Below, in pieces: positions 20,433 to 35,643 of a stretch of DNA of 64,000 nt. The stretch's first letter is position 1. Every line of letters begins with the position of its first letter. Made by a program: the position numbers and the translations under genes. The stretch comes from Gracilaria domingensis. Taxonomy: Eukaryota > Rhodophyta > Florideophyceae > Gracilariales > Gracilariaceae. The notes under the pieces are model-generated. The model saw nothing but the letters and a program-made list of their open reading frames with translations, searched no databases and was not told where the DNA came from. Where the stretch lies: NCBI GenBank assembly GCA_022539475.1, contig VCMS01000022.1, positions 790,237-854,236 on the forward strand, in the 5' to 3' direction.

Positions 20433-21866
20433 ATGGATATTCGCATTTGGCCAGTTTTGTTCCATCTCTTTTGTTTTTTATCTCATGCAAGAGGACATGG
20501 AATGATGTGTACTCCTCGGCAGAGAGGAGCGTATCATGCGAAGGATAAATGTGGGTCAAACTTACCTCACCCTTCAAACCCAATCACCGACTACTGCCCA
20601 CATTGTTTAAACGGCGGAACTGTGGCGACAGTGAAGCAAAACCTACCTCCTGGAGGTTGGAAGGAATACAATCCGATTACAGATGCCTCTACGTTGAAGA
20701 GAGCCGGACTCTGTGGAGATCCAAGAGGGAAGAACGACCACATGATTGGCGGAAAGTTCATGAAGTACGATAAGGTTCCAATTGTCAGTAAATGGAAGAG
20801 TGGGAGCGTCGTTGACCTTCAAATAGAGGTCGACACGAACCACAATGGGTACTTCGAATTCATTCTTTGCAACTTGGACGTCTGTGGAGTTCCTGATATT
20901 TCTGAGAAGTGTTTCAAAGAGCATTGCTATCGGCTTCAGAGAGTTAGAGCTCGCAAATGTGAGTCCCCATCACAGGGAACCCATTTTCAGTGCGGTCCGA
21001 TTGACGCCAAATACCCCTCTCGTTTTTATGTTCCTTGTCGAAAGACTGGTCACGTTGGAGTGCACCTTGTTGGTGGTGATGGGACAATGCTATACAAACT
21101 ACCAGACGGAGTTTCCTGTGTTCATTGCGTTCTTCAATGGTATTGGGCTACTGGAAATTCATGTGCACCTCGTGGGTTCTTGGATTACTTTGAAAGATAT
21201 GATAACCCTTTCGGAACAACTTGTGATAGTGATGGAGGCGGTACGGGAGCTCATAGAAAGGGAATGGGTAGTTGTGGGGGTCAAGTTGTCCCTGAGGAGT
21301 TTTGGTCGTGTGCGGATGTCAGTATTACTGGAAGTGGTAAGCGAAAACCACCGAGAGCGGGCAACTCTAAGCCGTTCACGGCAGAAGCAGAAGCGATACA
21401 GAAACCCAAAGATATTCCAGCATTTTCAACGAAGAAACCTAAGCCTGTAGAGCCCCAATCTGGAACCACAAGAAAGCCAGCATCACAATCAATGAAGTCC
21501 AACAGACCGCAGAAGGAGGACGTATCAATGACTCCCAAGCCTAAAACACCGCGGAAAGGTCGTCCGAAGAGACGCCCAGCCCGAAAAAGATGTATCAGGG
21601 AGCACAGCGTTTGTAATGGTAAGGTTCCATGCTGTGGTTCAGAGCACGTGTGCGTCTACAAGAAGAGCAAAAGCCGCTTTATGTGTGAAATTTGGTGGAA
21701 GTTGTGGAGTGAAGTAAAGGATGCTGGAACAGATCGTGCTGTCATCATGGAAGAAGAGGAGTTGTTTGACCTTAACAATGATGATTTCGATGATGGAGAA
21801 TATCACTTAGGACAAGATGAAAGTGAAGAACTTGACGAGTACGATGCATATGACAAAGAGTTATAA
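20433..21866 (+). CDS. AA15-like lytic polysaccharide monooxygenase with knottin-like tail
   Basis: 477 residues. The signal peptide (1-21) ends A-R-G, so the mature chain begins with His22, as LPMOs need for the copper histidine brace. The second brace histidine is His137 in D-T-N-H-N-G-Y-F-E-F. The core (22-300) also has C-V-L-Q-W-Y-W-A-T-G-N-S-C (232-244) and E-E-F-W-S-C-A-D near its end, the AA15/chitin-binding-3 pattern. A K/P-rich linker leads to a six-Cys module (C387, C394, C400, C401, C407, C418) spaced like an inhibitor cystine knot. The C-terminus is very acidic and ends D-K-E-L, an ER-retrieval-like tetrapeptide. LPMOs cleave chitin or cellulose oxidatively; the substrate here is unknown and may be the alga's own wall or that of an associated organism. 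Confidence 0.88.
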   Translation: MDIRIWPVLFHLFCFLSHARGHGMMCTPRQRGAYHAKDKCGSNLPHPSNPITDYCPHCLNGGTVATVKQNLPPGGWKEYNPITDASTLKRAGLCGDPRGKNDHMIGGKFMKYDKVPIVSKWKSGSVVDLQIEVDTNHNGYFEFILCNLDVCGVPDISEKCFKEHCYRLQRVRARKCESPSQGTHFQCGPIDAKYPSRFYVPCRKTGHVGVHLVGGDGTMLYKLPDGVSCVHCVLQWYWATGNSCAPRGFLDYFERYDNPFGTTCDSDGGGTGAHRKGMGSCGGQVVPEEFWSCADVSITGSGKRKPPRAGNSKPFTAEAEAIQKPKDIPAFSTKKPKPVEPQSGTTRKPASQSMKSNRPQKEDVSMTPKPKTPRKGRPKRRPARKRCIREHSVCNGKVPCCGSEHVCVYKKSKSRFMCEIWWKLWSEVKDAGTDRAVIMEEEELFDLNNDDFDDGEYHLGQDESEELDEYDAYDKEL

Positions 21867-31270: not shown

Positions 31271-32020
31271 TTACACAGTTATATGTTTTGATGGGTCTAC
31301 GTCATCTACTCCAACACCCCTCTGTTCTTCGAATATTTGTATAATTTCTTCATCTGTGGGAGTGATATCAGTATAATATCCTCTGTCGTCAGGATCTTTT
31401 GAAATCGTGCGCAACTCAATATCAAACACAACTGTTCCGTCTCCACTGTTAATAGCATCAATGAAAGCTTTTCTTCGTCTAAATTTCAACGGGATAGGAG
31501 CAAAGCCACTCTTTGAATAGCCGATTCTTAATGGAACAATGGCTCTGCGCTTTCCTCCAGCTCTCATGGTGTGCAGGGCCTCTTCGAGGCCCAAGACATG
31601 CTCCCCGTTTCCATGATGGATAAGGTATCCATGATTTCCACGGTCATAGGTAGAATCATGCTTTACAAGAGCATCTCCAGAAGGTTTGATGGTGTACAAA
31701 ACGTAGTGAATGTTGAGAATGTCACCCCATTGGGGAGTCGGGCCATCACCAACACTGAAGTCGAAAAACTTCAAGCCACTAATTGTTTGAAAGCCTCTAA
31801 TTCGCTGAGATTCGTCATCTTCCTGTTCTTCTGCAAGAGCAGGTAACAATGGTAGTGAAAACAAAAGACTGATGGCCTTTCTTCGTGACATAACAGGTGG
31901 GGCCCGTTCTATGTTGCGACTTGCAGAAGCACAGCAGACAACTCTCTGCTTGGCGTTACCGACGGTGCCCGCAGGCCGGGGAACAAAAGGTGTGCAGAAG
32001 TTAAGTGAAATAGAGCACAT
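31271..32020 (-). CDS. Thylakoid-lumen FKBP-type peptidyl-prolyl isomerase (FKBP16-like)
   Basis: 249 residues from the ATG at 32020. A transit-like N-terminus is followed by M-S-R-R-K-A-I-S-L-L-F-S-L-P-L-L-P-A-L-A, a twin-arginine thylakoid-transfer signal, which points to the lumen. The FKBP domain (about 85-215) shows W-G-D-I-L-N-I-H-Y-V-L-Y, F/L-G-L-E-E-A-L-H-T-M-R-A-G-G-K-R-R-A-I-V-P and V-F-D-I-E-L. Several active-site aromatic residues of classical FKBPs are not conserved, as in many lumenal FKBPs, so isomerase activity is uncertain. Such proteins assist assembly of photosynthetic complexes. A longer in-frame start at 32092 is possible. Confidence 0.87.
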   Translation of the reverse strand: MCSISLNFCTPFVPRPAGTVGNAKQRVVCCASASRNIERAPPVMSRRKAISLLFSLPLLPALAEEQEDDESQRIRGFQTISGLKFFDFSVGDGPTPQWGDILNIHYVLYTIKPSGDALVKHDSTYDRGNHGYLIHHGNGEHVLGLEEALHTMRAGGKRRAIVPLRIGYSKSGFAPIPLKFRRRKAFIDAINSGDGTVVFDIELRTISKDPDDRGYYTDITPTDEEIIQIFEEQRGVGVDDVDPSKHITV

Positions 32021-33225
32021 CGTCAAGGATGGCAAATTCAAAGGATTCCAGTCGATACCTGGTGAAGGGTCAGGGGGACTGAGCGGAAACACTCTTCTTG
32101 CTCTGGTTCAGAATTTCGACGTACGAAAACGTTCAAGCCAGTCTTGAGCGTATTGGTAGTCCAAACAGGGATGAGCAAGAGCTTGATTATGGCGGGTTTA
32201 ACTTGCTGAAGATCGAACGGACAGGACCTTTTCTTGAAGAAGTACAATTCTGATGATCTCGAACGGAGATTCTATTTTCGGTATCCGCCTTCGGTACGAA
32301 GGTACATATTCATATGTCATGAGCATCACGGTTGATTAAAAAAAAACACAATTACGGGAAAACCAATCGCGCAGTTACTTCTTTTTGTAGGTTGACTGAC
32401 GTCTTGGGGAATCTCTCTCATTTCCTACCGTCTACGACTAACCGTCAACGCATGTTAAGACAGGGCCACCTACCTTTGGTAGCTTCGTACTGGAAGAGCC
32501 TAGGGCTGAAGAGGAAGGCTAGCCTTTGTTCTAGGCGGGAGATATATGCTTATCTTCCCTTTAATGGATTCAGATAAATGTGCTACCCAATGGATGTGGA
32601 GAATCTCTACCTGCTTGCATATCTCTCGACAGAACGGTGAACAGGGAACAGAACATATTCCTTCCGTTGACATGATCATGACGAACATCATGATGACACT
32701 TCTTGTGGAGAGGGAGCAACAGCTCTAACCACAAACAGCACCTTGAAACAAATGCCTGCCGTTTTCGCAGTTCTGACAAAAGGTTGTGACAGGTGCTTAT
32801 ATCATTTATGGACTGCAAAAAAAGATACGGGCTGAAGATATTATACCGGCAGTTTTCGTTTATCAACAATTCTCATTCCAAAAACCAGAAGCAGACGGCG
32901 AGGGTCCCAGGCGTTCAACGCAGGGTACATGACCCGTGCGATTGATGCAAAATTCCATTTCGAACGAAGCCACAGGGCGCAGTGATTCCATTTCTTGAAT
33001 GGGGGTAGAGGTAAGTGTTTTGTGAGCAAATCAAGGTTCTTGACATAAGACGTGCTCTCTAGCAACCCACGCAATTAAGGAACTATGACATGAACATGAT
33101 ATGTTCCTCCGTCACTTTGAAGAAGAAAAACGAGCATCATGAGGCAGCTCTGACGAGAGTGAGAGATGTCGTGAAACGAGGTACCAACGCCTTGGCAACG
33201 TGGGAGTCGCACAACGCTATCAACT
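32021..33225. other. Intergenic region with LINE scrap
   Basis: 1.2 kb between the FKBP start and the NblA stop. It includes a LINE-like fragment (32425-32577, listed separately). A 77-codon minus-strand ORF (32841-33074) resembles no known family. Confidence 0.4.
32425..32577 (+). mobile_element. LINE C-terminal fragment
   Basis: Encodes M-L-R-Q-G-H-L-P-L-V-A-S-Y-W-K-S-L-G-L-K, matching the L-R-T-G-H-x-P-L...Y motif near the C-terminus of non-LTR retroelement ORF2. The motif is short and the flanks are not defined. Confidence 0.4.
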
Positions 33226-33675
33226 TCAATCGTTTTGCATATCTTCGGGGTCTGGCGGTTCGACGCCGAAATTCACATCTCTGTTCAACATTTTCTTCAT
33301 AATGTTATCCTTGACCATCATCTGGCGTACAACTTCAACAGCAAGTTTACGACATTCATCGCCAGTCATCCGCTCTACCTGCTCTTCATATTGCTTCATT
33401 AGCAGTTGTTGTGCAAGCGTTAGTTCGTTAGGTGTCTCTGGAAGCGCCTCTGCCTTGTCCTCATCAGAAGGTTGATAGACGGCGCGAGGAAACTGGGGGG
33501 TGGTGTGCTTCGGAGTCGAACGAGGGCGCTTGCACAAAGGGCTGTAAAACGTTGACGTTTTAGTTTGATTACCATGCGAAATGGGAAGAGGAAGGATAAA
33601 CGAGCACAGAGGTGAGAGGGCGGAAATGGCCCCCATGACGGAAGAAGGTGGCGGGCATGCGTATGTCCGCACCAT
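33226..33675 (-). CDS. nblA: Nuclear-encoded NblA (phycobilisome degradation adaptor) with plastid transit peptide
   Basis: 149 residues. The C-terminal ~60 residues (about 83-143) match the NblA/Ycf18 family: N-E-L-T-L-A-Q-Q, E-E-Q-V-E-R-M-T, and the hallmark R-Q-M-M-V-K-D-N-I-M-K-K-M-L. In cyanobacteria NblA binds phycobiliproteins and the Clp HSP100 partner to start phycobilisome breakdown under nutrient starvation. In red algae the known copy (ycf18) is a plastid gene. Here the domain follows about 80 residues rich in S, T, P, K and R, a likely transit peptide, so this is a nuclear copy whose product probably returns to the plastid. Starts are possible at 33675 or at an internal M 13 codons later. 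Confidence 0.88.
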   Translation of the reverse strand: MVRTYACPPPSSVMGAISALSPLCSFILPLPISHGNQTKTSTFYSPLCKRPRSTPKHTTPQFPRAVYQPSDEDKAEALPETPNELTLAQQLLMKQYEEQVERMTGDECRKLAVEVVRQMMVKDNIMKKMLNRDVNFGVEPPDPEDMQND

Positions 33676-34748
33676 GAATGTTCTGGTTGATGTTCAGGAC
33701 ATCAGTCTCCGCTCATGCTGGTGGGCGGCATCGGGAGTCACTACTCTCTTGCGGAACGCGAGATGTAGATGTAGGGTTTTAGGATCGTTGCAGAAATTGC
33801 AGAAAATCAGCAACACGTGTGCAGCCGAGCATTCTCCGCATGTTGAGTCCGCAAGCCCCATAGCAATGGACACCCGTCTTGAAGAATTACCATAGTCGTT
33901 TCGCTCGACTTCGTCACGAACATTTCCACTTGCTAGTCTGCCTGGGCACACAGCGAAGTGCCCGTAACATGCGCTTCTCTTGGTTTAGGAAGGGCTCACC
34001 GGTGCTGGATTCACGGTGAGCGTTGGCACCACCTCAAAGCCGTTTTACAAGCGCGTGTTTACTCAGGTCGTTACCTGTGGTTTCTTATGGCTCAGAAGTC
34101 TAGTTCGCATGCAGAGCTGGTCATTACAACCCGGGTGATGCCATAGTCCTCCGAAAGGCCATCCTTCAAATTCGTAAATAAAATGGTTGTTGCGCACTAC
34201 TGGTACATAACCCACGTTCCGTTAAACAGGTATAAGGAATCTTAGAGAAGACGAAACAGTTCCATACAGGACCTCGAAATTCGAAGGTCTGGCTTGATGG
34301 GCACAGATCTCGGCTCTTCGTAGCTTTTTCCACCTAAGGGCACAGTATCAAAGGTCATTCCAAACGGTGATGAAGTATATTGAGTACTTGTCAATTATTC
34401 CAAGATTAGCTTTCTGTTAAGACGGTCAATATAAATGATGCAAAGAGAAAAGAAAGCCGCTAAGCATCTCAGCGCGCACGGTCGAAACGTTGAGCGCATG
34501 AAGGTGAATCTGTCACAAATTTGATGTGCACCACTTGATATGCTCTCAAACAACTTGTTACTCTCCAACAACGATTGAAGCCATCGTCAACATGCTGCAT
34601 ACGCAACGACATCTGCATATCACTCGCAGGCGGGATATGCAGGCAAAATAGAGAAGCAGCGAATCGCCGCATAAAGTTTTGGCCACTAGCGTTTCCGTTA
34701 CACCGGTAGCTTGGTCGTAGAACCCGCTAATCGGTCCGCAATCTGATT
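33676..34748. other. Gene-free stretch
   Basis: 1.07 kb between NblA and GOT1. A short plus-strand reading near 33990-34110 (V-G-T-T-S-K-P-F-Y-K-R-V-F) looks protein-like but has no frame support on either side. No repeat or RNA gene recognised. Confidence 0.35.
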
Positions 34749-35210
34749 TCATTCATAAGATAATGGGAGTAGAACGAAAGTCAGCAACAGTCTAGCAGTG
34801 AAGGAAGGGAAAAATGAACGCACATTTCGAACTATTGGCAATCCAAGAAGCTTGCCAAATACGGGGGCTCGTCTTAAGAAAGCAATCACGACTGGAAAGA
34901 AGTCACCGAACAAGTTGATGAAACCAAAGAGCTCGACGGCCATGCCAATCATTGGTAGACCAAACAGTACGAAAGCCATACCACTGAAGAAAAAGACAGA
35001 AGCTTTTGCTTTTCGTTTTTGAAAGAAGAAGCGCACAGAACGAGTCGGACCAATTATCATCATGACTCCCGCAAGATACAGAACGTTGCCCATAGCGAGG
35101 AGACCCTTATCGAAAAAGAGCGCAACACCAAGCACGGAAAACGCCAGCCCGAAGGCGGTGAGACCGATTCCGATCTTTCGCACATCTGTAATAGCGAACG
35201 GGGACGACAT
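34749..35210 (-). CDS. GOT1: GOT1-type vesicle transport protein
   Basis: 153 residues with four hydrophobic spans, matching the GOT1/SFT2-like family: I-T-D-V-R-K-I-G-I-G-L-T-A-F-G, G-V-A-L-F-F-D-K-G-L-L-A-M-G-N-V-L-Y-L-A-G, G-P-T-R-S-V-R-F-F-F-Q, and a later G-F-I-N-L-F-G-D-F-F-P. GOT1 is a small tetraspan protein of ER-derived vesicles needed for COPII traffic to the Golgi. The ATG at 35210 matches the family N-terminus; the frame is open to 35318. It is divergent from RPN9. Confidence 0.94.
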   Translation of the reverse strand: MSSPFAITDVRKIGIGLTAFGLAFSVLGVALFFDKGLLAMGNVLYLAGVMMIIGPTRSVRFFFQKRKAKASVFFFSGMAFVLFGLPMIGMAVELFGFINLFGDFFPVVIAFLRRAPVFGKLLGLPIVRNVRSFFPSFTARLLLTFVLLPLSYE

Positions 35211-35643
35211 CTGGAGCAGGGATTTGGAGGCGAAATATTTGCAGAAACAACTGCGAAAGAGTATAGAACGGAAAGAAACTCTGTGGTACGGGGGGGGATG
35301 GGGTGCGGTGACGGTCACCGGAACTGCTTGTGCAGGACTCCAGCAGCAGGAGCGGTTTGAAGTTCAATGAACGCTTGTTGACTGCGCGGCAGCACTCGAG
35401 TTGACTCAACGCAGTGTCACTGATTCAGGGTGATGTTGATGCCGCTCCGCACGTGGCCACGAACGACAGGCATGAGTGCTCGTCCTAGGCACCGGCGCAG
35501 TTCTGCCTGCTGCTCATACATCGGTGACGCTGACTGCGCTCATTCCCGCTGGAGGATCTTTCCCGCCCTGTGCGCCGCGCCCTCCTCGAAGAGTGCGCCG
35601 TCTCTGCAATCGCGTTCGTGTGTCCAGCCCCATCCGATCCGTC
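35211..35643. promoter_or_regulatory. Divergent region of GOT1 and RPN9
   Basis: 433 bp, probably a bidirectional promoter. It contains a G-rich run and a short palindrome, CGGTGAC-G-GTCACCG (35306-35320), whose half-sites include the core GTCAC. Confidence 0.35.

Follow-up and report, generated by a model that had tools for sequence, protein, structure and literature searches.

In cyanobacteria, NblA serves as an adaptor of ClpC that delivers phycobiliproteins to the Clp protease, as set out in the available part of PMC7966870. The cyanobacterial proteins of solved structure (2q8v, 3cs5, 2qdo and 1ojh) are chains of 54–65 residues without a leader. Members of the family are also found outside cyanobacterial chromosomes, in the Microcystis phages MaMV-DC and LMM01, and red algae carry the domain on their plastid genomes as Ycf18. 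A nuclear form has likewise been described: the accessible sections of a 2013 paper (PLoS One, PMC3594237) present g3612 of Pyropia yezoensis as a nuclear NblA gene that is spliced, expressed and confirmed by RT-PCR. The premise of the original prediction for the locus described here, that red algal NblA is known as a plastid-encoded protein, is thus out of date. A nuclear red algal NblA is not a first discovery, since its kind was reported in that year; among the matches listed for the openly licensed literature (subscription papers lie outside it) no report beyond PMC3594237 appears.

The locus lies in a phycoerythrin-bearing red alga, Gracilaria domingensis. The window, meaning the whole stretch of 64,000 nucleotides that was analysed, occupies positions 790237–854236 of contig C22 in an assembly of 77.9 Mb and 680 contigs. 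Within the window the features are as follows.

33226–33675, minus strand: nuclear gene of the NblA family, with 149 codons counted from the first ATG and a TGA stop, found by profile search.
33634–33636, minus strand: Met14, the likelier start, with G at −3 (Met1 has T at −3).
33481–33636, minus strand: putative transit peptide, residues 14–65, from composition, its end placed by eye (...FPRA) and its import presumed.
33542–33549, minus strand: TTTTACAG, a speculative 3' splice site in the leader, picked by eye, use of which would replace the first 44–45 residues.
33283–33426, minus strand: NblA domain, residues 84–131 (Pfam PF04485), with predicted helices at 87–102 and 105–134 (AlphaFold2).
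33229–33279, minus strand: acidic C-terminal extension, residues 133–149, from the translation and AlphaFold2.
34749–35318, minus strand: Got1 family gene, the upstream neighbour (Pfam), marking a nuclear context.
31271–32092, minus strand: FKBP-type prolyl isomerase, the downstream neighbour (Pfam), with a twin-arginine leader seen by eye.

The reading frame runs from 33675 to 33226 on the minus strand, ATG to TGA, giving 149 residues and leaving the predicted coordinates unchanged; upstream, the frame is closed by a stop that ends 18 bases short of the ATG. An NblA/Ycf18 hallmark had been recognised at the C-terminal end and a search with the NblA Pfam profile proposed. PF04485 matches residues 84–131 over profile positions 1–48 of 50, with 42.3 bits (E 1.1e-10) against a gathering cut-off of 25 bits, and the protein carries both of the motifs originally quoted, R-Q-M-M-V-K-D-N and E-x-Q-V-x-x-M. 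The NCBIfam model NF045916 gives 32.6 bits, below its equivalog cut-off of 100, but this cut-off does not discriminate here, because the alga's own plastid NblA scores merely 26.4 bits and also falls short of 100. When solved structures were searched with phmmer up to E 1, five chains were returned: the four cyanobacterial NblA structures, which share the same domain by sequence (E 1.2e-5 to 1.4e-3), and an unrelated fifth (E 0.69). A two-helix (helix-loop-helix) NblA domain is predicted with high confidence by AlphaFold2, for which a 21-row alignment was the input for the full-length protein: block pLDDT is 85–97 across residues 81–130, and the same two helices appear when residues 78–149 are modelled alone. 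The leader is modelled with no helix (block pLDDT 48–72), and beyond residue 134 there is a single short predicted helix (143–146). Foldseek found no match in the PDB for either model, a result that we regard as uninformative for a two-helix protein, and a bacterial promoter scan, irrelevant to a nuclear gene, stayed at chance level.

The gene is nuclear. Pfam matches were found for 16 of 20 frames scanned, out of 45 in the window with at least 150 residues, and the eukaryotic-type neighbours comprise a SET/FYR protein, APC8, an NUP159/214 propeller protein, Got1, PSMD13, a DEAD_2 helicase, an ANTH protein and coatomer gamma; less can be read from a glutaredoxin, the FKBP, an aminotransferase and an LPMO_10 protein. 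The same contig has an LHC-family match at 473337, and blastn of the 64 kb window against 171.8 kb of plastid sequence, with its default filter, gave no match at E ≤ 1e-3 (the plastid contig opens with 8,000 N, which fall outside this comparison). It is these neighbours, the LHC-family gene and the absence of a plastid match that place nblA in the nucleus, and the location proposed originally is borne out, with Got1, APC8, PSMD13 and coatomer gamma nearby and no plastid-like DNA in the window. A recent insertion of plastid DNA is ruled out by the absent blastn match and by base composition (GC 50%, compared with 24% for plastid nblA), and cyanobacterial contamination by the eukaryotic neighbour genes. 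A phage origin was also rejected, the protein having no match in phage records at E ≤ 0.01; the cyanophage proteins, whose context is a phage and not an organelle, went unmatched with it as query, and viral contigs scanned for NblA gave 9 and 117 pattern stretches, none of them confirmed. The changed conserved residues discussed below could be taken to mark a decaying pseudogene or an unexpressed transfer, but the 149-codon frame is intact, plastid-like DNA does not surround it, and its composition has become nuclear-like while the NblA domain is still recognisable, which argues for long selection; we regard such decay as highly improbable.

Two of the neighbours deserve mention in their own right. 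The FKBP, whose gene immediately follows nblA on the same strand, has a twin-arginine bipartite leader in which the SRRKAISLLFSLPLLPALA stretch resembles a Tat signal for entry into the thylakoid lumen; it is probably a thylakoid-lumen protein, judging from its sequence, and nblA and FKBP are then probably two adjoining genes for plastid proteins. The LPMO_10 protein (46.7 bits; lytic polysaccharide mono-oxygenase family), at 20433–21866 on the plus strand of the window, has a secretory-looking N-terminus.

What, then, has become of the plastid gene? When PF04485 was run across the 77.9 Mb assembly, a search that could miss a copy split by an intron, it found two matches, the nuclear gene and a plastid copy on contig C680. 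The nuclear protein as query found the same two loci at E ≤ 1e-3, with chance-level extras at 0.12 and 0.17. The plastid contig is 179.8 kb long, has a GC content of 28.7% once its 8,000 N are set aside, and encodes an NblA/Ycf18 of 57 residues that scores 60 bits with PF04485. Its gene order, accA, psaK, ccsA, cpeA, cpeB, nblA, cpcG, was read by eye (cpcG also by PF00427), and the available part of PMC5217408 gives the same order for the ancestor of Bangiophyceae and Florideophyceae. The original prediction had suggested looking for ycf18 in the plastid genome and had allowed that the nuclear gene might either coexist with it or replace it; because ycf18/nblA is retained on C680, next to cpeBA and cpcG in the same assembly, coexistence holds and replacement does not. 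The two copies share the NblA domain. Ycf18, in contrast, is plastid-encoded, has no leader and is only 31% identical to the nuclear domain.

That domain is 44% identical to the cyanobacterial locus L060 and 40% to L059. A tree of 22 NblA domains (53 columns, with no other red alga among the rows) leaves two histories standing in AU tests: a clade of nuclear and plastid NblA (p 0.214) and a grouping of nuclear NblA with L059 and L060 (p 0.198). Since neither is rejected, plastid-to-nucleus transfer and a separate cyanobacterial origin are both compatible with the data. NblA matches occur in 104 of the 292 sampled genomes of the cyanobacterial phylum. One cyanobacterial genome (G004, with loci L060, L064 and L067) has at least three NblA genes, two of them with domain matches 122 bases apart (contig C7) and the third of a different type (C21).

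Comparison with g3612 of P. yezoensis, as it is described in PMC3594237, shows both likeness and difference. Each gene is nuclear, stands alongside a plastid ycf18 and is closer to cyanobacterial NblA than to Ycf18. The available part of that paper, however, describes two exons for g3612, with the intron between the conserved regions, and 65.0% GC, whereas in G. domingensis the domain lies in one exon and GC is 50%; by these differences in composition and in the intron the two are not the same gene. For g3612, mRNA and splicing were shown and the product was not predicted to be chloroplast-targeted, whereas the G. domingensis gene is known from DNA alone. What is new here is a second alga, a domain in one exon and the presence of both copies in one assembly, together with a transit-like leader unlike this alga's usual ones and changes at E88 and F91 (and L112).

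These changes stand out in an alignment of 21 rows, comprising 19 cyanobacterial domains picked for variety from 48 loci, Ycf18 and the nuclear protein. Positions 88, 91 and 112 are E, F and L throughout the other 20 rows, Ycf18 included, and are A, L and A in the nuclear copy, which retains L85 and Q89; column 131 is K or R elsewhere and N here. Conserved positions of both helices are thus altered. The same E, F and L occur in 38/38 distinct cyanobacterial domains from the 48 loci (34 counted by script and four mis-anchored ones by eye). All four solved structures keep the E and F, but in the Synechococcus elongatus structure, 3cs5, position 112 is F, so that L112 is not universal. Because E88, F91, L112 and K/R131 have changed, binding by the nuclear protein may differ, as far as its sequence can indicate.

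A protein altered in this way could be made and imported and yet no longer be an adaptor, acting instead as a regulator or a decoy, pairing with Ycf18 to modulate it, or in some other antenna role. Loss of two residues, E88 and F91, that are kept in every other NblA checked, along with L112, would fit such a role, as would the retention of both copies in one genome; Synechocystis reportedly needs an NblA1/NblA2 heterodimer, to go by the title of a 2014 paper, and we count this on the same side. The fold, the [RK]-Q-M-x-x-K-D-N motif and other positions are nevertheless kept, and binding can survive change at conserved positions, so that we think a regulator or decoy unlikely.

The preferred reading, in which the nuclear protein is an adaptor working inside the plastid, depends on its leader. 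This is an open frame of approximately 77–83 residues whose first acidic residue is D71; none of 200,000 shuffled versions of the protein is free of acidic residues over its first 70 positions. Its composition, taken over residues 1–65 or 14–65, is 25% S/T, 11–12% K/R and 0% D/E. For reference we used the 18 nuclear PBS-linker and LHC-type genes of the assembly (9 + 9, with split matches merged), of which 17 loci were inspected and leaders were taken from 11 genes, their ends being placed by eye. Nine of these 11 leaders are acid-free, compared with 0/18 of the other N-termini in the window, although the two sets are not fully matched (34–45 residues as against 55 each), and the leader count is biased, the start at L049 being an internal Met judged credible partly by its AF.

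A phenylalanine rule has been described for red algal transit peptides. At the PBS-linker/LHC loci L034–L057 an M(x)AF(V/I/T) transit-peptide start is nearly uniform, and this may be useful locally for predicting the plastid proteins of this alga. The M(x)AF start is found in 17 of the 18 genes, 11 at first and six in a second pass, upstream of the domain, at L045, L046/L047, L051, L052, L054/L056 and L055; for L048, the sole exception, none was found. It is absent from the NblA leader, in which the first F is residue 26 (position 13 from Met14), within SFILPLPIS. The predicted transit peptide thus stands as regards its acid-free composition with S/T and K/R, and does not as regards the start typical of the alga's PBS-linker and LHC genes; by composition a transit peptide is plausible. 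Since the FKBP with its twin-arginine leader also has no early AF, this feature may be common rather than obligatory.

The missing start could also mean that nuclear NblA acts outside the plastid, in the cytosol, vacuole or mitochondrion, where it would never meet intact phycobilisomes. The chloroplast prediction that g3612 did not receive, in the portion of PMC3594237 available, would agree with this. Against it stand the leader, with its likeness in composition to this alga's transit peptides, and the adjoining FKBP that manages without an early AF. No partner of NblA is known to us outside plastids. Such a location appears to us decidedly improbable.

Met14 is the likelier start to judge from its sequence context, which shares G at +4 with Met1; a purine at −3 is present in 9/11 reference starts. 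Over residues 1–77 the codon signal is weak, at 0.063 bits per codon, compared with means of 0.167 for 80 in-frame stretches, which come from the training genes themselves, and 0.000 for 160 out-of-frame ones; 8.75% of the in-frame stretches score lower and 22.5% of the out-of-frame ones higher. When only synonymous choices are scored, residues 14–77 (0.033) resemble the NblA domain (0.039) and lie within the span of the 11 leaders (0.014–0.110), and residues 1–13 score −0.031, on 12 codons, a number too small for a decision.

It is also conceivable that part of the gene has been missed and that the real start lies on a short exon further upstream, spliced to TTTTACAG in the leader. Six of the M(x)AF starts (L045, L046, L051, L052, L054 and L055) are separated from the frame that contains the domain, as though they belonged to an exon of their own, and for this reason we give the possibility more weight; the splice-like site within the leader, read by eye, has a fitting phase. 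The 3,000 bases upstream, however, hold only one MAFV-type start (34979), within the Got1 gene, and a MAFRRT candidate at 34162, itself picked by eye, has a poor donor (GG|GTTGTA). Synonymous codon scores, moreover, are alike over residues 14–45 (0.035), residues 46–77 (0.031) and the domain. A missed exon therefore seems improbable, and that translation starts at Met14 and the protein is imported into the plastid seems to us quite probable.

Our favoured reading, to which we give a probability of roughly 0.6, is that the gene encodes a divergent, nucleus-encoded adaptor of the NblA type. Synthesised in the cytosol, the protein would carry a leader of some 50–65 residues by which it probably enters the plastid; once inside, its two-helix domain would, as a dimer, grip phycobiliproteins and pass them to the ClpC–Clp protease, like cyanobacterial NblA and beside Ycf18. 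We infer that the gene is expressed, that its product is imported, forms dimers and binds phycobilisomes and ClpC, and that it answers to a physiological trigger, by which the nucleus might control phycobilisome breakdown under nitrogen starvation.

Partners for such a mechanism may be at hand. Among the plastid genes is one for a ClpC-like chaperone of 822 residues, 690 of which were scanned; the name ClpC is our own reading, the best NCBIfam models being ClpB and ClpA, below their cut-offs. Because it is encoded there, the components of the cyanobacterial pathway could come together in the plastid, given import of NblA. The ClpP family (CLP_protease) has 13 matches on 10 non-plastid contigs, which does not indicate where the products are targeted. 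Also plastid-encoded are a response regulator of the LuxR type, an NblS-like histidine kinase (632.7 bits, where the equivalog model asks for 1000) and a weakly NtcA-like protein (42 bits, where the NtcA equivalog asks for 245, and no Pfam match at 1e-5). The last, at 165577–166236 of C680 (L020:5577–6236, plus strand), looks like a strongly drifted plastid nitrogen regulator.

Why would a red alga keep two NblA genes? C. merolae CMV052C is presumably a plastid gene, and NblA of that alga falls under nitrogen depletion, according to the part of the source available. In P. yezoensis, the accessible text of PMC3594237 has ycf18 induced by ammonium and not by nitrogen-poor medium. These observations leave room for another factor, and the nuclear protein would be a sensible candidate for the starvation signal that is missing. 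A possible but tentative view is that the ancestral role has been split, with an ancient nuclear copy of remodelled contacts serving as the starvation adaptor and Ycf18 being constitutive or linked to ammonium, which would explain why ycf18 is not induced when nitrogen is lacking.

Finally, how red algae dismantle their phycobilisomes under starvation is a standing question, the NblA gene responding, in the portions of the literature available, unlike that of cyanobacteria. The changes at conserved positions offer direct mutants to try, and with a second alga, what the literature searched shows as a finding in one species becomes a gene that may recur and whose candidate role can be tested.
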